Source of the DNA: Planctomycetota bacterium
GTDB taxonomy: Bacteria > Planctomycetota > UBA1135 > GCA-002748355
Assembly (NCBI GenBank): GCA_011321845.1
Contig: DROQ01000231.1
Coordinates: 1-33,188 of the forward strand
Direction of reading: 5' to 3'
Length of the DNA: 33,188 bases
Positions 4,272 to 25,378 of the stretch are shown in pieces. Every line of letters begins with the position of its first letter. Position 1 is the stretch's first letter. A program made the position numbers and the translations under genes. The notes below the pieces were generated by a model that made no database searches, was not told the origin of the DNA, and saw nothing but the letters and a program-made list of their open reading frames with translations.

Positions 4272-5608
4272 AGGCAGAAAAAAGAGAAAAGGGATCACCC
4301 TTCCGGAAAATCCGCGTAGGGATGGTGGTTCACGCTTACTACGAAAAAGACGCTCGTGTCCGAAGGTACGCCGAATCCCTTGCCAAGCTAGGCCATTACG
4401 TGGAGGTTGTCGCCCTCCGGGCCAAGGGGCTGCCCAAGCATGAGATCATCGAGGGTGTGCATCTCGTTCGCGCCCCCCTCGACAGGAAGCGGGGAGGAAC
4501 CCTCAGATACATCTTTGAATACTTTGTCTTCCTTCTACTCTCTTTCTGGCATCTCGCCAAACAAACGTTCCGCAAGCGCTTTGATGTCGTGCATGTCCAT
4601 AACATGCCTGACTTCTTGGTATTCAGCGCCCTCGTCCCCAAGATCTTTGGGAGCAAAGTCGTCCTGGATGTCCACGATCTCATGCCCGAGGTCTACGCGA
4701 GCAAATTCCACTGCAGCTTGAATCATCCCATGATCATTCCGCTGCGGATCCAAGAAATCGCTTCCCACCTCTTTGCCGACCGCGTGATCTTCGCCACTTC
4801 CATTTTTCAACATTTGGCTGTCGCAAGAGGAACCTGCGAAAAGAAAGACTCCCTCGTCGTCCTCAACGCGCCCGACACAGATCTTTTCGACGAATGCAAA
4901 CATCCCTGGAAAGGTCCCGAAAACCCGCAAGAATTCAGGCTCCTCTATCTAGGAACCGTCTCCGATCGGCATGGACCCGACCAGCTCATCCGAGTCCTGG
5001 CCAAAGCCAAGGATCGGATCCCAGGGATTCGCCTGGTTTTGCATCCGAAACTGGCCGACGGAGAAGGAGAGCCCCTGGCCGCCCTCGAACGCCTCGCCAG
5101 GGAGTTGGGAGTGGAGGATCGGTTGGATATCCGGCCATCCATCGATCTTCGAGAAGTGCCCAAGGTCATGAGCCGATCCTCCGTGGGGACCTTCACCCCC
5201 CATATGGATGTCCATATAGACATCGCGCTGTCCCTCAAGGTCCCCGAATATGTCGCGATGGGCCTCCCCATTGTGACCGTCAACACCAAGATCATGCGGA
5301 CCTTGTTCCAGGAAGGTGAAGTGCTCTACTTTGAGGATGGGGACATCGAAACCTTCGCAAACCACCTCGTGTTCCTCTATGAGCACCCGGCCGAAGGGCA
5401 GGCCATGGCTCGAAGAGCCAAACGATTCCTCAACGAACATTCCTGGGATCAAGAGTTCGCAAACTACAGGTTGGCCTTGGAGTCCTTGTGTGGATGCAGC
5501 CTCCTCCAACAACCGGCTGACTCCAAGGGACCGAGCCCTTCGGAGGAACACTCACGAACTCTTCAGACTTCTTCTCAGACCAAGGCGGAAAAAGCATCCT
5601 CCAGATAG
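4268..5608 (+). CDS. Glycosyltransferase, GT-B fold (GT4-like)
   Basis: The 446-residue protein opens with RVGMVVHAYYEKDARVRRYAES, the N-terminal acceptor domain of GT4 enzymes, followed by VVHVHNMPDFLVFSA and VVLDVHDLMPEVYASKF. The C-terminal domain carries LLYLGTVSDRHGPDQLI, a strand region RLDIRPSI, and a donor-binding segment with SLKVPEYVAMGLPIVT at about 323-338. It is similar in plan to the preceding gene and coupled to it by an ATGA overlap, so both probably act on the same surface glycan. The last 40 residues are Ser/Glu/Gln-rich and unlike the family. Its 3' end overlaps the convergent aroB gene by 34 bases. Confidence 0.9.
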   Translation: MKAEKREKGSPFRKIRVGMVVHAYYEKDARVRRYAESLAKLGHYVEVVALRAKGLPKHEIIEGVHLVRAPLDRKRGGTLRYIFEYFVFLLLSFWHLAKQTFRKRFDVVHVHNMPDFLVFSALVPKIFGSKVVLDVHDLMPEVYASKFHCSLNHPMIIPLRIQEIASHLFADRVIFATSIFQHLAVARGTCEKKDSLVVLNAPDTDLFDECKHPWKGPENPQEFRLLYLGTVSDRHGPDQLIRVLAKAKDRIPGIRLVLHPKLADGEGEPLAALERLARELGVEDRLDIRPSIDLREVPKVMSRSSVGTFTPHMDVHIDIALSLKVPEYVAMGLPIVTVNTKIMRTLFQEGEVLYFEDGDIETFANHLVFLYEHPAEGQAMARRAKRFLNEHSWDQEFANYRLALESLCGCSLLQQPADSKGPSPSEEHSRTLQTSSQTKAEKASSR

Positions 5609-6651
5609 GAAGAGGCCTTGAGCCGCTCCACATGGCAACCCCCCAGGGAATGGATCCTTGGTTCGTGGATCCACTCTCCTTCCCTTTTCTTGTCCCGCGA
5701 AAAGAACACCCTAAGCTCCTCCAACTTTGGGGTGGACGGGAGCACCTGTTCGAAGGCGTTCGGCAGCCCCAAGTGATCCAGAAAGGCTTCGCCTTCTCTC
5801 TGTTCCGAGGGGGAGAGCTTGCCAATCCGTAGCTCCGCTCTGAGGCCGAGAGCAACGGCATTGCCATGGTTGAGCGTATCGGGACCGGCCAAAGCTTCGA
5901 GGGCGTGGGCAAGACTGTGCCCCAGATTGAGCGTGCGACGCAGCCCCTTTTTTTCCCAAGGATCTTCAAGGACGACATCGGACTTGATCCGAAGACATCG
6001 ATGCACCAATTCTTCGAGAAGCTTGGGTGAAGTCTGGGCATTCAGGGGAGGGATCTCTCTCAGCCAATCCATGAGAATCTTCGAGAAGCCCAGCCCATAT
6101 TTGGCCACCTCCCCCAGGCCACTCGAAAACTCGGTCTTCGGGAGAGTTCCTAACAGTTCAGGATCCACAACAATCCTCTCCGCGAAGTGAAAGGCGCCCA
6201 AAAGATTCCGACCCTCCGGAAGATCAACCGCGCATTTCCCTCCCAAACAAGCATCCACCGCCGACAAAAGGGTCGTGGGAACCTGAATGAGGGGCAGCCC
6301 CCGCAAGACAAGGGCAGCGGCGAGTCCTCCCAGATCGAGAACCGCCCCCCCACCCAGGACAACAACTCGGTCCCCTCGCCCTAAACCGGCTCCGACAATG
6401 TGGGAACAGAGCCGAATCAACTGCTCGGGAGTCTTGTGGCTTTCGCCGCCTGGGATCAGGGCGACCCCCGAAGCCTTCTCGCTGAGAGACTCGGCCAGCG
6501 TCTTGTGCCCCTCTTGGAAACCCTGGTCCAGGACCAAAAAAAACGTTCCAGAAAGCTCCTCCAGATCCCTCAGGAGATCCCGACTCGCCCCACAGGCGAT
6601 TTCTACCCGCGTAGCAGGACCTGGGCTCTCAAGGCGGAGATCCCAACGCAC
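5575..6651 (-). CDS. aroB: 3-dehydroquinate synthase
   Basis: This 358-residue protein matches the usual AroB length. It has the NAD-binding segment DRVVVLGGGAVLDLGG (about 94-109), the signature QVPTTLLSAVDACLGGK (about 123-139), and metal-site segments GLGEVAKYG, LNLGHSLAHALE and HGNAVALGL supplying Glu, His and His. The enzyme converts DAHP to 3-dehydroquinate, the second step of the shikimate pathway, using NAD+ and a divalent metal in the cytoplasm. It starts with GTG, with GGGAGG eight bases upstream, four bases after the stop of the preceding gene. It is the last gene of a five-gene run, and its final 34 bases overlap the glycosyltransferase gene on the other strand. Confidence 0.95.
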   Translation of the reverse strand: MRWDLRLESPGPATRVEIACGASRDLLRDLEELSGTFFLVLDQGFQEGHKTLAESLSEKASGVALIPGGESHKTPEQLIRLCSHIVGAGLGRGDRVVVLGGGAVLDLGGLAAALVLRGLPLIQVPTTLLSAVDACLGGKCAVDLPEGRNLLGAFHFAERIVVDPELLGTLPKTEFSSGLGEVAKYGLGFSKILMDWLREIPPLNAQTSPKLLEELVHRCLRIKSDVVLEDPWEKKGLRRTLNLGHSLAHALEALAGPDTLNHGNAVALGLRAELRIGKLSPSEQREGEAFLDHLGLPNAFEQVLPSTPKLEELRVFFSRDKKREGEWIHEPRIHSLGGCHVERLKASSYLEDAFSALV

Positions 6652-16409: not shown

Positions 16410-19400
16410 TCAACGACTCCTCTTGAGTTTGAGGTCCAGGCCCTCCGTCTTCTCCACCTTTTCGAAGAGGTTTTGAAGCTCGGGATACCTCTCTGCAGGA
16501 ACCCGCTGGGTCTCCAACTGAAAGGACCTACGAACAATCAGTGTTTTTCCATCCTTTTCGAGAACACATTCATAGCCTCCGAGACCCGGATATTGAACCT
16601 TGGCCCCCTTGGGAATCCCTGTCCACTCGAAGCCCTCGGGAGCCACATAACGGATCTCCACATCCCGCCCACTGGGAGGGTTCAGGAGCATGTCGTACTT
16701 CCTCGTCGCGGCCGCGGTCAAACGGGCCAAGCGGATCGGACGATAGGCGATTCTCACCCGGAAACCGTCTCCCACCTTTTCAGCCAATTTTTTGACCTGG
16801 AAGTTGACGCGATACTGAACCGGAACTCCCAGATCCTTCAGATTGGAGAAAGAGAAATCCGTGATCTTCACTTGTCCGAAAATGGAGCCTAAGCGATCGG
16901 CCAGCTTTTCTTTGCGACGGCCCGCCTCATTCCCATAGGCCTGCCGGACGGGAGGGCCGAAGTTGAGAAGGGGGTTCCTGCGCATTTCGACTTCGGCGTC
17001 TCCATTCGCTTTGAGTTGGATCGAATACCTGTATTGGTCTCGATTGCGCATGGGATCGGTCCAGGGAACCTGGACGACCTTTCCCTTGCCCCCTTCCACC
17101 AAGAGCACCTTGGCCCCGGCGTCCATGAGGGGGAGAGTGTCGATGGGGTGGTATTCGGCCGTCCCATCCAGGAAGCGCCCCTTGAGCCCAGGCTGATCAG
17201 GCACATAACTGATGCAATGGTTGAAATGCTCCACAAGAGGAAGGCTGAGGTCGTCCTTCTCCCTCACACTCTCCCCCCGGATCAGGACAGGCCAGGCCTT
17301 GACCCCGATCTGGGCGAGCATGGTGTTGAGAAGGATCGCCTTGTCCTTACAGTCTCCGTGCCGGCGCCCGAAAATCGCCCCCACCGAGTAAGGCTTGTAG
17401 CCATGCACTCCAAACTCCCAGGCAACGTAGCGAATATCCGTGACCACAAACTCATAGATTTTGCGGACCTTGTCCTCGAGGGTCTTTTGGTCTCTGGTCA
17501 GCTCCGCCACCTTCTCTTTGATTTCCGGTGTGGGCACCATCTGCTTGCGGATCAGGTTCCACCACCAAGAGGCGAATTCATCCCAACTTCCATAGGTGGA
17601 GACGCGGAGCAGAGGGCCACTCTCACGCGGGCTGGGCGCTCGCTCCTCGATGTCACGACGTGGGATTTCGGGGATGGAATAGCGTAGATAGGTCGCTCCG
17701 TCCTCGAGGATCCTCTTCGCAGGCTCGGGGACATTCCCCACTTTTTGGAAGTGGTATTTCCGGCCCTTCTCGAGGATCAGATCCAGGACCGAGTGGTACA
17801 TCCCCACGGCCTCGGGCGGCACAAAGAGGTGGGAAAGGCCAAAGTAGTCGCCAAAGAAGCTCCGTTCCCGATCATCCACCCGTGCCTTGATCTCCACATA
17901 ATCTCCGATCTTGATCGGTGGGAGGTCCACCCAATAGACGCGACCTAAACGAGCCTGGGCGGAGCTTCCGTCGGGGTGGATCACCCGCGCTTCGAGAATA
18001 CGAGCGTCCTGGTCCGAGCTAAAGAAAGGGGGCCGATAGGTGTCGAAGATCCTTGCTCCCTCATCCGTCAGAATCTTAGCGACAAAATGGACATAGCGGC
18101 TCTGGGTGCCGTCTCGATAGGCCCGCACCAGAGTGTGCCTCAGCAAGTAGTAATGAGAATCCCCCCCCTTCTTGGCCCCCTTGGGCGCTCCAGGATCCTT
18201 TGCGATCAGGGCCTTGCCGTCGAATTCGTATCCCGCGTAAAAAGGCTTCTCGTCCTTTTTCAAATACTCCAGGTGCCGCCTCTCCTCCTTGAGGTTCGGG
18301 TCCAACCGCAAGGCCTTTTCCAGGAATCCGATCTGCAGGTCGGTTCGCCCCCGGATCGCCGCGATGCGGGCCATTCCCAGGATGGCACGCTCATCTTCGG
18401 GGCAGATCGAGAGACGCCGTTGCAAGGCCTTTTCGGCTCCATCCAAATCACCCTCCGCCTGGAGGTTGAAACGAAGGAAGAAGGGGAGATTAGCACTCTG
18501 AGGGAAATCGGCCATCAGCTTGAGCACGACCTCCTTGGCCTCTTGGCGCTTTCCCATCCGAAAGAGAAGCCGACTCAATCTTTGCCGGACAGTGGGCTGG
18601 CCATTCAGCTCCACCTGCTGCCGAGTGAGTTCGATCGCCCTGAGGATCCGATCATTCCTCATTTCCATACTCACAGCCTGTCCCAGCACCCGGGAGGAGC
18701 GTTTCCCTTCGGAATCCTCCATCAACTGGCGAAGCTCCCGGTCTGCGAGGAGATCCAAGTCCCGTCCCCGTAGGATTCGAATCTTTTCGAGCCTGGCAAG
18801 CACAAAGCGGGGGTTGATGGCGAGGGCTTTGTCCACCCACATGGTCGCCTTGGTCCAATTCTTTCGCAGGCGGCGCTCCATCTCGGCCAGGCCCCGCATG
18901 GCCTCCGCGTAACGTGGCCATACTGCAATGGCTTTTTCCCAGGCATGGTATCTGGGGTTCTCCTCACGGTCCGCGTCCGACGCCCCACGCTTGATCAAAG
19001 TGACTCCATACAAGTACCAGGCCGGCCCGAATTCGGGGAGCAGCTCGGCAGCTCTCAAAGCCGCCTTTCGATCCCGCCGGTTGGCCTCTTCGTCCGTCCC
19101 CCGGTTCGCCAAGAGGAAACCCAATTGAAACGCCACCGCACCCACCTTGCGCGCCTCTTCCCCATCGGAGACCTTGACCTTTTTCGCACGGCTCAGGGCC
19201 TTGGCCAGGTATTCCACTGCCCCCTCGCGAACCGCCACCTTGGGCGCAGGATGATCCAAGGGGCGAATCCCCGTCAGAGCCTTGGGATCGGCCGAGACAT
19301 CGAGGTTGCCTGGAATGGGCTTTCCATTGGGCAGGGTCAATCGGATCCTGGACTCGAATTTGGAACTCTGGGTGCAGAGCTTGACCACGACGAGGTTCCG

Positions 19401-20210
19401 TCCCCGCCGGGTTTTAAACCCGCAGGCGTCCTGGTCGAAGGAGAGAGGCCTCTCCTGGATTTCCCGCCGTGCCACCTCCTGACCGTTGACGAAGACAGCG
19501 AAGCTCCCGGTTGTGGAGAGACGCAGGGCCAGAGCCATCTCCTTGTCCGTAGTCACCTGGAATACAGCATAGGCGAGCACCTGGCGATTGGGGCGGAGCC
19601 TCGAACCCAGGTCCAGGCGGAAGAGGGGATTGGACAAACGCACTCTCCGGAATCCGACTTCGCGTTTTTTCCCTTGGATCCGCTTCTTCAGATCCAGGGG
19701 TTTCGCCGGTGCGTCCTCGGGAAAAAACCTTCGCCGAAACCCGGAGCCTCTCTCGTTGTCCAAGGGCCCAAGGATCTGAAAATCCTGCACATAGCCGAGG
19801 GCCCTCATCTCCGCGCGGGCCTTCTCGCTCTTCCCAAGGAGCATATAGGCATTGACGAGCACATTTCCGATGGCCGCGTCCAGAATGGGACTCTTTTGAA
19901 TGGAGGGAGCCTTTCTCAGATTGCCCAAGTTTTCGATCAGATCGGCTCTCCGGTCCGTCTTGTCGGTCAGACTCTCCGCCAAACCCACTAGGAACTCACC
20001 CCGTGCTTCGGAGGCATTGTCGAGGCTCGGCATTTGGGAAAGCTGTCGAAGAGCCTGGAAGGTCCGCTCCAAGGCCGGGACATATTTTCCTTCGGCCTTC
20101 AGGGCCAGGATCCCACGATCCACCTCGAAAAAGGATCGATCCTGGGCGGGGAGGCCCCGCCCACCCATGATCCCAAATGCCCATATCAACAATGAAAGAT
20201 GAAATCGCAT
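16410..20210 (-). CDS. Secreted TPR / DUF3857 / transglutaminase-like protein
   Basis: The 1266-residue protein starts with a signal peptide (MRFHLSLLIWAFGIMGGRGLP). An N-terminal region contains a beta-sandwich-like segment (about 160-300), TPR-like helical repeats run from about 310 to 650, and DUF3857 spans about 685-850. A transglutaminase-like core follows with Cys954 (RRHGDCKDKA), His998 (FNHCI) and Asp1015 (LDGTAEY) in the papain-like triad order. The C-terminal 230 residues are beta-rich. The TGase domain may cleave or crosslink peptides outside the cytoplasm; the target is unknown. The ATG at 20210 is preferred over the open frame to 20384 because AAGGA lies six bases upstream and a signal peptide follows directly. 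It is the first gene of the operon with GT2, DUF2304 and the membrane protein. Confidence 0.92.
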   Translation of the reverse strand: MRFHLSLLIWAFGIMGGRGLPAQDRSFFEVDRGILALKAEGKYVPALERTFQALRQLSQMPSLDNASEARGEFLVGLAESLTDKTDRRADLIENLGNLRKAPSIQKSPILDAAIGNVLVNAYMLLGKSEKARAEMRALGYVQDFQILGPLDNERGSGFRRRFFPEDAPAKPLDLKKRIQGKKREVGFRRVRLSNPLFRLDLGSRLRPNRQVLAYAVFQVTTDKEMALALRLSTTGSFAVFVNGQEVARREIQERPLSFDQDACGFKTRRGRNLVVVKLCTQSSKFESRIRLTLPNGKPIPGNLDVSADPKALTGIRPLDHPAPKVAVREGAVEYLAKALSRAKKVKVSDGEEARKVGAVAFQLGFLLANRGTDEEANRRDRKAALRAAELLPEFGPAWYLYGVTLIKRGASDADREENPRYHAWEKAIAVWPRYAEAMRGLAEMERRLRKNWTKATMWVDKALAINPRFVLARLEKIRILRGRDLDLLADRELRQLMEDSEGKRSSRVLGQAVSMEMRNDRILRAIELTRQQVELNGQPTVRQRLSRLLFRMGKRQEAKEVVLKLMADFPQSANLPFFLRFNLQAEGDLDGAEKALQRRLSICPEDERAILGMARIAAIRGRTDLQIGFLEKALRLDPNLKEERRHLEYLKKDEKPFYAGYEFDGKALIAKDPGAPKGAKKGGDSHYYLLRHTLVRAYRDGTQSRYVHFVAKILTDEGARIFDTYRPPFFSSDQDARILEARVIHPDGSSAQARLGRVYWVDLPPIKIGDYVEIKARVDDRERSFFGDYFGLSHLFVPPEAVGMYHSVLDLILEKGRKYHFQKVGNVPEPAKRILEDGATYLRYSIPEIPRRDIEERAPSPRESGPLLRVSTYGSWDEFASWWWNLIRKQMVPTPEIKEKVAELTRDQKTLEDKVRKIYEFVVTDIRYVAWEFGVHGYKPYSVGAIFGRRHGDCKDKAILLNTMLAQIGVKAWPVLIRGESVREKDDLSLPLVEHFNHCISYVPDQPGLKGRFLDGTAEYHPIDTLPLMDAGAKVLLVEGGKGKVVQVPWTDPMRNRDQYRYSIQLKANGDAEVEMRRNPLLNFGPPVRQAYGNEAGRRKEKLADRLGSIFGQVKITDFSFSNLKDLGVPVQYRVNFQVKKLAEKVGDGFRVRIAYRPIRLARLTAAATRKYDMLLNPPSGRDVEIRYVAPEGFEWTGIPKGAKVQYPGLGGYECVLEKDGKTLIVRRSFQLETQRVPAERYPELQNLFEKVEKTEGLDLKLKRSR

Positions 20211-20398
20211 GTCGGTCCTTTTTCGAACTTGGCTTGTTGCTGGAGAGCCCGGGGCCGGGGCATCATCCTCACGAATCAGCCTGGCGAACGGGGAGCCCAA
20301 ATTACTCTCCCCCTCCTCCTCATGCCATCCCGGAGCCTTTTTATCCAAATCTCGTATGAAGTCCTCCTTGCCTCCCATCTTCATGACTATGATGTTCG

Positions 20399-20416: not shown

Positions 20417-20452
20417 AGAGCCATGGAATTCCGCCGATCTTCAGGAGAACCG

Positions 20453-21286
20453 ATGAAACAGAGTGAAAACCGGGTCCGAAACATCGTGAGAGACCGTTAC
20501 GCCGACATCGCAAGGAACGCCCCGGCCCCCTCCTCCAGCGGCACCTGCAGCCCAGCCTCGGACTGCTGCGGCGGAGGGACCAAGGACCTGAATGTCGACG
20601 AAGTCGCCCATATGCTGGGTTACACCCCCGAAGAACTCAAAGACATCCCCCAAGGCTCCAACATGGGCCTGGGCTGCGGAAACCCCCAAGCAATCGCCGC
20701 TTTGAAAGAAGGCGAAACCGTCCTGGACCTCGGGTCGGGAGGCGGCGTGGACTGCTTCCTGGCCTCCAAGAAGGTTGGGCCCAAGGGTCAGGTCATCGGC
20801 GTCGACATGACCCCCGAAATGCTCGAAAAAGCCAGGGAAACGGCCAAGGAAGGCAATTTCCACAATGTCGAGTTTCGTCTCGGGGAGATCGAACACCTAC
20901 CCGTCGCGGATGAATCCGTGGACGTCATCATGTCCAATTGCGTCCTCAACCTCTCCCCCAAGAAGGACCAGGTCCTCAAAGAGGCTTTCAGGATCCTGAA
21001 AAAAGGCGGCCGACTCGCCATCTCCGATGTGGTGGCCACGACTCCCCTGCCGGATTCTCTCATGAACGACCCCGAGCTGCTGACCGGTTGCATCACGGGG
21101 GCCGCCTTTGTCCCCGACCTGCGCAGATGGATGGAGGAGGCAGGCTTCGAGAACATCAGGATCGATCTCTGGGAAGAGAGCCGTGCCTTCATCAAGGACT
21201 GGGCCCCTGGATCCGGCATCGAGAAGTATGTCGTCTCGGCGCAGATCCAGGCGACGAAGCCCGGTGGCGGATGCTGCTGCGGCTAG
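20453..21286 (+). CDS. arsM: Arsenite S-adenosylmethionine methyltransferase
   Basis: The 277-residue protein has the SAM-binding motif VLDLGSGGGVDCF (90-102). It also has the arsenite-binding cysteines in ArsM contexts: Cys75 in MGLGCGNP, Cys163 in MSNCVLNL and Cys213 in LTGCITGA. The N-terminal CC pair (38-39) and the C-terminal GGGCCCG are also typical of bacterial ArsM. It methylates As(III) stepwise to mono-, di- and trimethyl forms in the cytoplasm. The ATG at 20453 is chosen because AGGAGA lies five bases upstream; the open frame extends ten codons further to 20423. No arsR or arsB lies in the window. Its stop abuts the stop of the convergent ODP gene. Confidence 0.95.
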   Translation: MKQSENRVRNIVRDRYADIARNAPAPSSSGTCSPASDCCGGGTKDLNVDEVAHMLGYTPEELKDIPQGSNMGLGCGNPQAIAALKEGETVLDLGSGGGVDCFLASKKVGPKGQVIGVDMTPEMLEKARETAKEGNFHNVEFRLGEIEHLPVADESVDVIMSNCVLNLSPKKDQVLKEAFRILKKGGRLAISDVVATTPLPDSLMNDPELLTGCITGAAFVPDLRRWMEEAGFENIRIDLWEESRAFIKDWAPGSGIEKYVVSAQIQATKPGGGCCCG

Positions 21287-22048
21287 CTAGACGAGCTGGG
21301 GAGCGGGGTCGGCAGCCACCCCGACCTTGAGGGCGGAGAACCAGTCGAGGAAACGCCCCACGTCCTTGCCCTTGAACAGAAGGCCATGCTGGGGAGCGAG
21401 GATGTCGATCTCGAGACTCCGGATCCTTCGGACCCAGGCCTGCTTGGCCTCCTCGGAAGGCATCCAGCGTTGATGGAATCCTTCCATATATGGGATATGG
21501 GCGTCGAAATCCTCGACGAAGAGGCTCGTCTTGGCTGTCTCGGGAACGAGGGCGGCGCCGATGTCCCCCGTGAACAGCACCTTGGCCTCCGGATCATAGA
21601 GTGAGAAATTCCCGGAGGAATGCAGATAGTGCGCCGGGATCAACCGGAGAGCCCGCCCGGAGGAAAAGCGTAGATCCATCCCCTCGTCGGGGATCGGAGT
21701 AAAACTCGCCTGGGGATCGAAGTGGGACACAAATCCGGTCCACAACCATGACACATAGATTTTGACCTCGCCGGGAATGATGGATCGCCAGAGAGGGAGA
21801 GAGGAGCTGACATCCGGGTCCTGGTGGGAGAGAAACATCGTGGTGATGCTCTGGGGGTCGACGCGACCGGTCAAGGCGCCCAGCATCGTGGGAAAGACCT
21901 CGGATCCACCCGGATCGACGAGAAGGGTTTCATCCCCGTCGATCACCACGAACTGGTTGGTGTCAATAATCTGCTCGGGGCGATCCGGATCCTGGCCAAA
22001 AGCCATCCAGCGACGGTGGGAACTGCGGTAAAGGGTTTCGCACTTCAT
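21287..22048 (-). CDS. Oxygen-binding di-iron protein (ODP), metallo-beta-lactamase fold
   Basis: The 253-residue protein has the flavodiiron-type lactamase fold without a flavodoxin domain. The first metal motif is His75-Gln-Asp77-Pro-Asp79 (LSHQDPDV), the signature of the ODP family, where flavodiiron proteins have HxExDH. Further ligand candidates are His140 (or His143) in PAHYLHSSGN, Asp162 in LFTGD and His221 in PQHG. ODPs hold a di-iron centre that binds O2 reversibly and signal through chemoreceptors in bacteria where they have been studied. The ATG at 22048 overlaps the stop of the MCP-tip-like gene (ATGA), which suggests a stoichiometric pair. An open frame to 22132 exists but lies inside that gene. 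Confidence 0.9.
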   Translation of the reverse strand: MKCETLYRSSHRRWMAFGQDPDRPEQIIDTNQFVVIDGDETLLVDPGGSEVFPTMLGALTGRVDPQSITTMFLSHQDPDVSSSLPLWRSIIPGEVKIYVSWLWTGFVSHFDPQASFTPIPDEGMDLRFSSGRALRLIPAHYLHSSGNFSLYDPEAKVLFTGDIGAALVPETAKTSLFVEDFDAHIPYMEGFHQRWMPSEEAKQAWVRRIRSLEIDILAPQHGLLFKGKDVGRFLDWFSALKVGVAADPAPQLV

Positions 22049-22758
22049 TCTTTTATCCTCGAAGAACTTCCATTCTTTGCTCTGCGGATCGCGCGCTTCG
22101 TCCTCAAAAGCATGCTTCGCAGGGCTTCGCAATCGCCCCGCATCCTCTCGGCCACTTGCACAAAATCCGTCTCCTGGTCACGAATCCCGGTCGCCTCGAT
22201 GGCCACGCGGGTCGCGATGTTTTCCATCCGCATCAGGACATCTCCAAGGTCCTGGGTAAGGCTCATCAAGGCATCCAAATACCCGAAGACGGCCTGGAAG
22301 CCCCGCTCGATCTCCCCACGAAAACGCCCCAAAGCCTCCTTGCACACCTGGGTATAGACCGCCCTCCCCTGTTCGTCATCCCGATCGGAATCGATGGCTC
22401 GCTTGGTCCCGGAGAGCAGGTCGATGCAGGAGATCAAGCTGGACTCCTTGCCCTGGAGCAGGAGCAACTCGGCGTTCTTGCGATAGGTCTTGGACCGTAG
22501 ATCCTGGATTTCATCGTGAGCATGCAGCAACTCTTCGGATGCCCTGCGGGTGAACTGGGTCAGCACAGAGACGGTTCTCCCATCCTCGCCGGCTCGGAAG
22601 CCCGCGAACCCCGCGTTGTAGGAGAGAAAGGAGAGATTGGTTGCCAGATTCTCCAATCCAGCCAATTCCTCGAAGGCGAGCAAGGCGAGATGGGTCGCCT
22701 GGGCGATGGAAGGCCCCAGCACAGCACGATCCGGGGTCAGCAAAGTCGAAGTTGTCAC
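22045..22758 (-). CDS. Soluble coiled-coil protein with two chemoreceptor-like hairpin tips
   Basis: The 237-residue helical protein has no membrane segment or sensor domain. Residues 31-74 align with the MCP cytoplasmic hairpin tip: NLSFLSYNAGFAGFRAGEDG keeps the spaced pattern N-A-x5-R-A-G-E-x-G-R of canonical tips, followed by the conserved downstream Arg. Residues 168-213 align to the same motif with a different subset retained (AIEA, F..VAE..R). The middle is a polar coiled coil. I infer a soluble signalling partner of the coupled ODP protein, perhaps joining a chemoreceptor array. The GTG at 22758 is preferred over 22833 because AAAGGAG lies eight bases upstream. Whether it can bind CheA/CheW is unknown, since key tip residues are substituted. 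Confidence 0.78.
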   Translation of the reverse strand: MTTSTLLTPDRAVLGPSIAQATHLALLAFEELAGLENLATNLSFLSYNAGFAGFRAGEDGRTVSVLTQFTRRASEELLHAHDEIQDLRSKTYRKNAELLLLQGKESSLISCIDLLSGTKRAIDSDRDDEQGRAVYTQVCKEALGRFRGEIERGFQAVFGYLDALMSLTQDLGDVLMRMENIATRVAIEATGIRDQETDFVQVAERMRGDCEALRSMLLRTKRAIRRAKNGSSSRIKE

Positions 22759-22917
22759 GGGCGGCACTCCTTTCCCAGCCCGGAACTTCCTGCGTGAATC
22801 CACAAAACGGGGCAACGCGAACAACCCGGGCAAAAAATGAACAGGATCTCGCCTACTTATCGAACTGCTTCGATTCGGAGCTTTAACCTCCCCAGGAATC
22901 GAGGAGGAGCTTCGCCC

Positions 22918-23805
22918 TTAGCGGACCTCAGGGCCGGAGAGGCTCCCGTCCCCGTCCCTGTCGGCGTCCCGGAGAACACGGGCCGAGTGGCGCACAAGGA
23001 ATGGGGAGATCCTTCCTAGGGCCCTTTTGATTTCCCGCGCGTCCAAGCGGGTGTCCGCGTTGAGATCGGCACCCGCCATTTCCGGGGGGAGAGGCCGGAG
23101 CTTGGGGGCGGGGATGGACCTGAGGGCTTTGTCGAAGACGACCAGGAGGGGAAGGAGAGGTTTGAGTTCCCGCATGGAGAGATACCCGGAGAGGTCCTTG
23201 TCCAACTCCGAAAAACCCTCGGCCCGTTTCCCCAAAAGGGGTTTTACCGCCGCCCATTCCTTGGGGCTGATCCTCTCATCGAGATCCAGGTCCAGGAGAC
23301 CGAAGAAGCGTTGCAACGCGGGGGGCAGCTCGAGGAGCCGGGAAATCCCGAAGCGGGACCGGCTCAGAGCTTTGGGAGCGAGAACGATGGCCCCGCCGTA
23401 GGCACTCTGGGTCTTGAACCAGGAATCGAACTCTTCGAAGGTCACAAAACCGTTGCGGTTTTTGTCCAGCTCTCGGTGGAAGACACTGCGGTTGAGGCGC
23501 CCCCCCAGAGAGTCGAGGGCTTCGAAGAGGGAAATGCGGTCGTCCGCATTGGCGTCGCAAGCCGCAAAGAGGTCCCGGGACATGCTCTTGCGGTAGACGC
23601 GGAACACCGCGGGCCGGGGAGGAAGAGTCTTGGTTGGGAGGGGCTTGGAATGTTTATTGGGGGAAATCAAAGGGGAGCTTGGAGAGGGCAGGGGACTTTT
23701 GCGAGGCGTGGCCAGGGGTTTGGCAACGGTAGCTTGGGACTTCCCGTCCGCAGACAGGAATCCCAGAACAAACAGAGCAATCGTTGCGGCGCCGTATACC
23801 TTCAT
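22918..23805 (-). CDS. Secreted multi-EF-hand protein
   Basis: The 295-residue protein has a signal peptide (about 1-20) and a Pro/Ser/Lys-rich linker to about residue 65. Six EF-hand loops follow, at 84-95 (DANADDRISLFE), 114-125 (DKNRNGFVTFEE), 172-183 (DLDLDERISPKE), 202-213 (DKDLSGYLSMRE), 247-258 (DLNADTRLDARE) and 282-293 (DRDGDGSLSGPE). Most loops keep Asp at 1 and 3 and Glu at 12, so Ca2+ binding outside the cytoplasm is likely. They group as three pairs. No enzymatic domain is visible, so it may be a calcium-dependent structural or adhesive protein. GGAGGAG precedes the ATG. It is probably transcribed alone or with the gene at 23945. Confidence 0.9.
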   Translation of the reverse strand: MKVYGAATIALFVLGFLSADGKSQATVAKPLATPRKSPLPSPSSPLISPNKHSKPLPTKTLPPRPAVFRVYRKSMSRDLFAACDANADDRISLFEALDSLGGRLNRSVFHRELDKNRNGFVTFEEFDSWFKTQSAYGGAIVLAPKALSRSRFGISRLLELPPALQRFFGLLDLDLDERISPKEWAAVKPLLGKRAEGFSELDKDLSGYLSMRELKPLLPLLVVFDKALRSIPAPKLRPLPPEMAGADLNADTRLDAREIKRALGRISPFLVRHSARVLRDADRDGDGSLSGPEVR

Positions 23806-23944: not shown

Positions 23945-25345
23945 TCAGGGGATGAAAACCGACTCGGCCCCGAGACCCACCTGGCTGGCTCCTCGGGACT
24001 GGGCTTCCTCAAAGGCCGATGGCATCGGACCGAAACAGCCAATCTCGACCTTGAGCCCCATTCCCGCGAGGTATTCGATCAGGGGAGTAAGTCCCGGGTC
24101 CGTGCTTGCAATGACCACGGCATCCACCCGGGCGGAGAGTGCGAGGGCGTCGGTGGAGAGGCGCACGAGCTTGCGCGCCCGGTCCTCCTCCTCGATCAAA
24201 GTGTCAAAACCCTGGGAGAGCAGGATCTTGCGGCGATTCTCGGGGAGGTTGCCTTGGTAACCGATGGTCCTCGGGTTCTGGCGCCCCTGGAGGAGTTGTT
24301 CCAAGAGCCCGTTCGCGCTGAGGTGCCCCCCGAAATCCTCCTGGGCCCTGGCCTCTAGTTCATCGAGATCCACCAGGAGGGCGACCCGCTGGCTGTTGCG
24401 ATGCTGAAGAGGAACGGGGATGGAGGGGACCCGCTGGCCCTGGGGAGTGCGGGAGCGTCCCGAGTCCCTGGAGCCCTCGCTTCGCTCGCGGCGCCCCCGG
24501 TCGCGATCACGGCCACGACCACGGTCCTCGCGGTTTCGATCCCGGTCACGACGGCTCCCCCGATCCTGGTCTCGATCACGATCGGAACCGCGATCACGAT
24601 CACGGCGATTTCCCCTGTCCTGGTCGCGGTCTCGCCGGGACTCCCGGTCTCCACGTCCTCGACTTCTTCCCCGGTCGCGGTCCCGGCCACGGTCCGTGTC
24701 GCGATCCTGGTCGCCCTCGGCCTCGCGGCTCCGTTCTTGATCTCGCTCGCGCCCTCGAACCCGTTCACGACCTCTGCCCTCCCGTCCTCTCTCGCGACGG
24801 CCAGTGGAAGAAGGCGAGCTAACGGCCTCGTCCTCGTCCTGGGCTTCCATCCGTTCGTCAGGAGGATTCACAACAGCGATCTCGTCCAGCTCTTCCGGAG
24901 GCAAAAGCCCCGCCCCAAAGGGATCGTTCTCGAGGCTGACATCTTTTTGCACCTCCGCGCCAGGGATCACAATCCGGCCACTCGAGGTCTCGAGGGTCTC
25001 GTCGGGCTCTCTGCCCAGCTTGGCTGCCGCCTCGCGCTTGCGGGCTTCCCGCTCTTCGGGAGAACGGCGCTTGCGCGTGCGCCGGGGTTTCTCCTCGGCA
25101 GCCTTGGGCTCTTCGCCTTCCTCGGGGGCATCGGCGGGAGAAGCTGCGGCTTCCACCACATCCTCTTCGGCCGATGCAGCCTTTTTGGTCCGGCTCCGAC
25201 TCCTGGTCGCCGTTTTTTTGCGTTTGCTTGTCTTTTTCTTGCTTGTCTTTTTCGAACCACTCTTCGAGCTGCTCGAGGTCGTTTCCTCGCGCTCGTTTTC
25301 TTCAGAGTCTCCGGGAAGAATCCCAGAACCGAAATCTGATTCCAT
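23945..25345 (-). CDS. NYN/LabA-like domain protein with a long Arg/Asp-repeat region
   Basis: This protein of about 466 residues has an acidic N-terminus, Lys- and Ala-rich segments (KKTSKKKTSKRKK), and then an almost pure Arg/Asp/Gly/Glu/Ser region (about 184-301) made of repeated RDRDRGR and DQDRGS motifs. The C-terminal domain (about 320-466) reads as NYN/LabA type. RVALLVDLDEL is the first acidic strand, FDTLIEEEDRARKLVRLSTDAL the second, and VVIASTDPGLTPLIEYLAGMGLKVEIGCF the third. NYN domains are PIN-like nucleases or RNA binders. The Arg/Asp region is similar in style to RNA-associated low-complexity domains and may drive condensation or RNA binding. The ATG at 25345 follows AAGGAAAAG; an ATG at 25378 is also open. 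Confidence 0.8.
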   Translation of the reverse strand: MESDFGSGILPGDSEENEREETTSSSSKSGSKKTSKKKTSKRKKTATRSRSRTKKAASAEEDVVEAAASPADAPEEGEEPKAAEEKPRRTRKRRSPEEREARKREAAAKLGREPDETLETSSGRIVIPGAEVQKDVSLENDPFGAGLLPPEELDEIAVVNPPDERMEAQDEDEAVSSPSSTGRRERGREGRGRERVRGRERDQERSREAEGDQDRDTDRGRDRDRGRSRGRGDRESRRDRDQDRGNRRDRDRGSDRDRDQDRGSRRDRDRNREDRGRGRDRDRGRRERSEGSRDSGRSRTPQGQRVPSIPVPLQHRNSQRVALLVDLDELEARAQEDFGGHLSANGLLEQLLQGRQNPRTIGYQGNLPENRRKILLSQGFDTLIEEEDRARKLVRLSTDALALSARVDAVVIASTDPGLTPLIEYLAGMGLKVEIGCFGPMPSAFEEAQSRGASQVGLGAESVFIP

Positions 25346-25378
25346 CACGATCTTTTCCTTATTTCTTTGACGATCCAT

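Follow-up and report, generated by a model that had tools for sequence, protein, structure and literature searches.

The 33,188-nucleotide stretch of Planctomycetota DNA that we analysed, referred to here as the window, encodes a small protein whose two predicted helical hairpins both appear to derive from the signalling tip of a chemoreceptor (MCP), and whose gene overlaps that of an oxygen-binding di-iron protein (ODP). Relatives of this double-tip protein, of about 200-270 aa and mostly unrecognised by Pfam, occur in Planctomycetota, Alpha- and Gammaproteobacteria, SAR324, Myxococcota and Krumholzibacteriota. New here are a single chain with two tips, the wide occurrence of the family, and the way in which conserved residues are divided between the tips. 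We think it probable that this chain is a pseudo-dimer that serves as a soluble O2-input module, coupling ODP to CheA/CheW arrays.

The double-tip gene (22045-22758, minus strand), delimited from its open reading frame, family homology and an AlphaFold2 model, encodes 237 aa between a GTG start at 22758 and a TGA stop at 22045-22047. A good Shine-Dalgarno sequence, AAAGGAG (22767-22773, minus strand), identified from sequence, lies an 8-nt spacer away from the start. The stop codon shares an ATGA at 22045-22048 with the ATG of the ODP gene, which starts at 22048. The original prediction for this DNA had proposed both this coupling and a product with no sensor, HAMP or membrane part, and it holds up on both points: Pfam and hydropathy analysis of the window protein found no sensor, HAMP domain or membrane segment, with a maximum 19-residue hydropathy of 1.16. 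Weak matches to PNMA, ZorA and PRK02166 were far below cut-offs and were set aside as coiled-coil noise, the PNMA match not being common to other family members.

The core of tip 1, residues 45-71 (22546-22626, minus strand; LSYNAGFAGFRAGEDGRTVSVLTQFTR), keeps N381, R388, A389, G390, E391, G393 and R394 in Tsr numbering and is without E385. The core of tip 2, residues 181-207 (22138-22218, minus strand; IATRVAIEATGIRDQETDFVQVAERMR), keeps I-E385-A, F396, V399-A400 and R404 and is without N381 and R388. The expectation of a first hairpin with canonical MCP-tip residues and a second with a complementary subset is thus sustained. Recognition of the separate hairpins by Pfam MCPsignal (PF00015), to which the original prediction also appealed, was split: residues 39-90, which include tip 1, match at E = 6.4e-4 with 20.1 bits, short of the 34.6-bit cut-off, and tip 2 of the single sequence gives no match and is recovered only through the family profile. 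No other Pfam family rises above its cut-off in the window protein.

Each tip was taken separately from a 22-member family alignment and compared by hhalign with MCPs, most of them from the same genome. The probability was 98.5% for tip 1 and 95% for tip 2, both in tip register, and the two tips matched each other at 92-93%. In each of these three comparisons none of 100 shuffles of seven-column blocks, which preserve coiled-coil character, reached the real score, and reversed controls and column shuffles also fell below it. Searched against all PDB chains, the family profile returned MCP chains as its top 13 matches (3g67, E = 1.7e-13). Sixteen of the 22 members match MCPsignal individually at E <= 0.01 and, in the reverse direction, ordinary MCPs of the window's class match the family profile. 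Profile-level homology to the MCP tip hairpin therefore establishes MCP ancestry, with tip 1 resembling MCPs clearly and tip 2 at the profile level only. We considered whether this might be a generic coiled-coil likeness combined with an incidental pairing, given that the Pfam match is below cut-off and that helical proteins cross-match easily. This reading, which we regard as highly improbable, is contradicted by the failure of heptad-preserving shuffles to match the real scores, by the MCPs heading the PDB list, by the invariance of N381 in tip 1, and by the 38 of 39 profile-found members that abut an ODP gene.

AlphaFold2 models, built on 22 sequences, bear out the paired helical hairpins that had been predicted. 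The window protein (pLDDT 89, pTM 0.82) is modelled with helices at residues 11-30, 35-55, 57-120, 126-189 and 196-236, as long helices that turn at both tips, and a divergent member of 18% identity (L044; pLDDT 91, pTM 0.81) as four clean helices at 8-47, 51-101, 108-162 and 166-204; the predicted turns coincide with the two tips and a single linker. Because the two middle helices are of near-equal length, both tips should share one end, as in an MCP dimer. We infer from these helix boundaries and lengths, rather than from coordinates, that the chain would form an up-down four-helix bundle whose two tips lie together, reproducing the shape of an MCP dimer from a single polypeptide. In Foldseek searches of the PDB with both models, MCP structures gave no significant E-values. 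This is to be expected of a four-helix chain set against single hairpins, and the searches were counted neither for nor against MCP ancestry. The L044 model matched best the fold of 5vju, a de novo designed four-helix-type protein (TM 0.54).

The division of conserved residues between the tips, first noticed with 26 members, was counted in 57. N381 is present in 57/57 sequences at tip 1 and 17/56 at tip 2, E385 in 0/57 and 49/56, and R388 in 44/57 and 17/56, respectively, so that neither hairpin carries the full canonical MCP tip motif across the family. In addition, tip 1 has mostly lost E402 and V398, and tip 2 has mostly lost R394. In trimers of dimers, E385 pairs with R388' in an ionic lock between dimers (PMC8144572), and the counts thus imply that each half mainly keeps one lock partner. 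In an array, the two halves may make correspondingly different contacts. The consensus methylation motif was matched twice in the 57 sequences, against a shuffle mean of 1.6, by a search that matched only 5/8 control MCPs.

The ODP gene (21287-22048, minus strand) encodes 253 aa and was assigned from its Pfam and PDB matches and its ligand residues. Its product reaches the gathering score of PF19583 (E = 1.2e-75, 254 bits against a cut-off of 27.2) and is closest in the PDB to 6qrq, 'Oxygen-binding diiron protein' (E = 8.7e-71). All candidate iron ligands of the HxDxD...H...D...H set are conserved (H75-x-D77-x-D79, H140/H143, D162 and H221), with roles that we assign presumptively by analogy with flavodiiron proteins. 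By these sequence measures it is a genuine member of PF19583 (6qrq, 6qnm), from which we found no difference in sequence. Other ODP genes occur in different settings. The window's own genome (C135) has a second ODP, 38% identical (L019, 1420-2187), between a PAS/histidine-kinase-like and a receiver-like open reading frame, both read by eye, a context that suggests that ODPs serve two-component systems too. Elsewhere, two tandem ODP genes with an ATGA overlap follow one double-tip gene (L047, 3995-5487), and the ODP of a marine alphaproteobacterial MAG, in a genome without a CheW match, has no double-tip neighbour and carries a D to E change at its GDIGA ligand motif (L032, 4001-4729).

Converging on the ODP gene in the window is a class I methyltransferase gene (20423-21283, plus strand; Pfam Methyltransf_31) with Cys-rich ends, CSPASDCCGGG and GGGCCCG, whose product we take to resemble an arsenite methyltransferase. 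Three further genes, all on the minus strand, encode a protein predicted to be secreted, with several calcium-binding EF-hand repeats by Pfam (22921-23805), an NYN-domain protein with a long Arg/Asp (RDRD) repeat region (23948-25378), and a protein of 1324 aa that combines TPRs with DUF3857 and a transglutaminase core (16410-20384).

Homologue searches with the window double-tip protein as a single query gave no usable relative, and the family was found instead through ODP. Searches with ODP yielded 27 loci in many phyla, at 23 of which a double-tip relative is the adjacent upstream open reading frame on the same strand; this relative is frameshifted at L037 and has an internal stop at L046. 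In leave-one-out profile searches all 22 alignment members were recovered above shuffled decoys, the weakest (L047) at E = 4e-5 against 0.025 for the best decoy; the scores of the close pairs L040/L042 and L036/L041 are inflated. Among full-length matches to the family profile, 38 of 39 stand directly upstream of an ODP gene, a count to be read with the profile's origin in mind, as it was built from ODP-linked members, some themselves counted, and could miss divergent ODP-free relatives. The matches adjoining ODP comprise 6/6 in the window's class (window included), 24/24 in Gammaproteobacteria (23 carrier genomes among 369 searched) and 8/9 in Alphaproteobacteria (385 genomes searched). Four partial matches within long MCP-like open reading frames (L108 and L109 in the gamma sample, L111 and L112 in the phylum sample) have no adjacent ODP. 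The pair is therefore conserved across several phyla, a point on which the original prediction had called for a survey.

Proximity to cheA and cheW, the other subject of that survey, is found in some genomes but not in the window itself, where the pair stands alone with no che gene nearby, although its genome encodes CheW-domain proteins and no fewer than eight MCPs. At least four genomes have the pair within a cheA operon or adjoining one. In one (L114, G407) the order on a single strand is cheY-STAS-cheA-MCP-MCP-cheW-cheB-double-tip-ODP-cheR; in a second (L115, G429) a large cluster with cheY, cheA, two cheW, cheR, cheD, cheB and MCPs runs into double-tip-ODP. In a third, GC-rich locus (L113, G352), read from plus-strand open reading frames only, cheA-MCP-cheW-double-tip-ODP is followed by cheR-like and cheB-like frames recognised by eye from their N-termini, and in Krumholzibacteriota (L046) the order is double-tip-ODP-STAS-cheY (receiver)-cheA.

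These contexts bear on the idea that the MCP-derived bundle no longer works with CheA/CheW and is instead a scaffold or partner through which ODP acts on another target, such as a c-di-GMP enzyme, a histidine kinase or a STAS protein. Many pairs, that of the window included, do not adjoin che genes; a GGDEF protein lies beside one pair (L045) and a histidine kinase beside another (L040), and the second ODP of the window's genome, flanked by the kinase-like and receiver-like frames described above, points the same way. However, CheW domains are present in 23/23 gammaproteobacterial carriers against 275/369 sampled genomes (hypergeometric p = 9e-4, relatedness ignored) and in 27/29 carrier entries of the first survey. 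The two exceptions (G136 and G161) carry an identical protein (L055 = L035) and probably represent a single incomplete Planctomycetota genome. The organism of the window belongs to the same order as G136, which is a further sign that it is a planctomycete. Together with the four che-operon cases, this leads us to regard a target outside the che system as improbable, though less so than the coiled-coil explanation.

Copies of the double-tip gene also occur without ODP. A lone gene in Magnetospirillum sp. UT-4 (L126, 6863-7600, minus strand) is placed among phage genes but on the opposite strand, with a head-tail connector gene on one side and a tail gene on the other, and a search of viral contigs with this single phage-region copy as query found copies of 80-83% identity at the same place, again with no ODP, on three IMG/VR contigs (L127-L129, ~5001-5735). 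No plasmid or annotated-phage matches to the family were found. An oxygen receptor is a hard explanation for a phage copy that lacks ODP, and interference with the host array or the host ODP system would fit better; the phage-borne copy is a possible chemoreceptor mimic.

Such copies raise the alternative that the double-tip protein is generally an array antagonist or cap and no receptor, which would occupy receptor or CheW sites and break receptor contacts, with ODP releasing or arming it according to O2. A prophage could profit from interfering with its host, each tip keeps the canonical contact set only in part, and the methylation motif is not above shuffle level, in a search with the same limited recovery of control MCPs (5/8). 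On the other hand, the invariant N381 and the kept RAG suggest productive contacts, and pairs are placed within intact che operons just as ordinary components are. We therefore consider a general antagonist unlikely, if somewhat less so than a target outside chemotaxis, and continue to favour the soluble O2-input module.

Several known systems share features with the family. The soluble MCPs 3g67/3g6b, which give its top PDB sequence match, are likewise cytoplasmic without a membrane part, but they have one tip per chain, are homodimers, and possess a full-length hairpin with a canonical tip. DosM of Vibrio cholerae, a double-signalling-domain receptor (Briegel et al. 2016, cited in PMC10653840), resembles the family in having two MCP signalling domains in one chain. 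Unlike the ~220-aa four-helix chain, DosM is a receptor of full size in which both signalling domains are complete, and it is not known to be linked to an ODP.

The nearest precedent is the TDE2498/TDE2496 pair of Treponema denticola, where an ODP likewise has as its genetic partner a soluble MCP homologue with neither membrane nor sensing parts. This ODP is reportedly the subject of a 2019 study by Muok et al. in PNAS. TDE2498 senses oxygen for chemotaxis. The MCP homologue to which it is genetically coupled, TDE2496, has neither membrane nor sensing modules and can modulate CheA, and the order of CheA in arrays is altered when the ODP is deleted (PMC7666581). The original prediction, which knew ODPs as linked only to ordinary MCPs, must be corrected in this respect, since a sensorless soluble MCP beside an ODP was already known (PMC7666581). 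Compared through its description only, TDE2496 is an MCP homologue, whereas the present proteins are double tips of 200-270 aa. We found no description of an ODP-linked double-tip family in a literature search that left most subscription papers outside its reach.

We suggest that an MCP signalling hairpin was duplicated, or two were fused, and trimmed to the array-contacting end, and that the two hairpins of the resulting chain would fold as an up-down four-helix bundle with their tips at the same end. The translationally coupled ODP would bind O2 at its di-iron centre and pass its state to the bundle, which would sit in or against the CheA/CheW array and change CheA activity. Lacking a membrane part, a HAMP domain and any detectable methylation region, the bundle would act as a soluble O2 input without adaptation, and tip 1 (N381, R388, AGE) and tip 2 (E385) may have taken over different contacts. 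Insertion into the array, contact with ODP and the direction of signalling are what we infer here, and the T. denticola precedent (PMC7666581) makes a soluble receptor unit that carries an ODP oxygen signal to CheA plausible. A broader proposal, to which we give somewhat less than even weight, is that this unnamed, widespread family consists of single-chain receptor pseudo-heterodimers with a genetically fixed asymmetry (N381/R388-AGE against E385), which receive O2 information through ODP and whose lone phage copies interfere with host chemosensing.

With this family, oxygen sensing based on ODP would reach beyond a spirochaete into several phyla, and the lone copies point to chemoreceptor-tip proteins carried by phages. 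In arrays, the identical subunits of a receptor dimer make different contacts, and mutation of a single subunit is hard. In the double-tip chain each half can be mutated separately, and the diverged halves of this natural single chain show which residues evolution keeps in each. If the proposal is correct, an asymmetry that identical subunits adopt only through their position in the array would here be genetically fixed.
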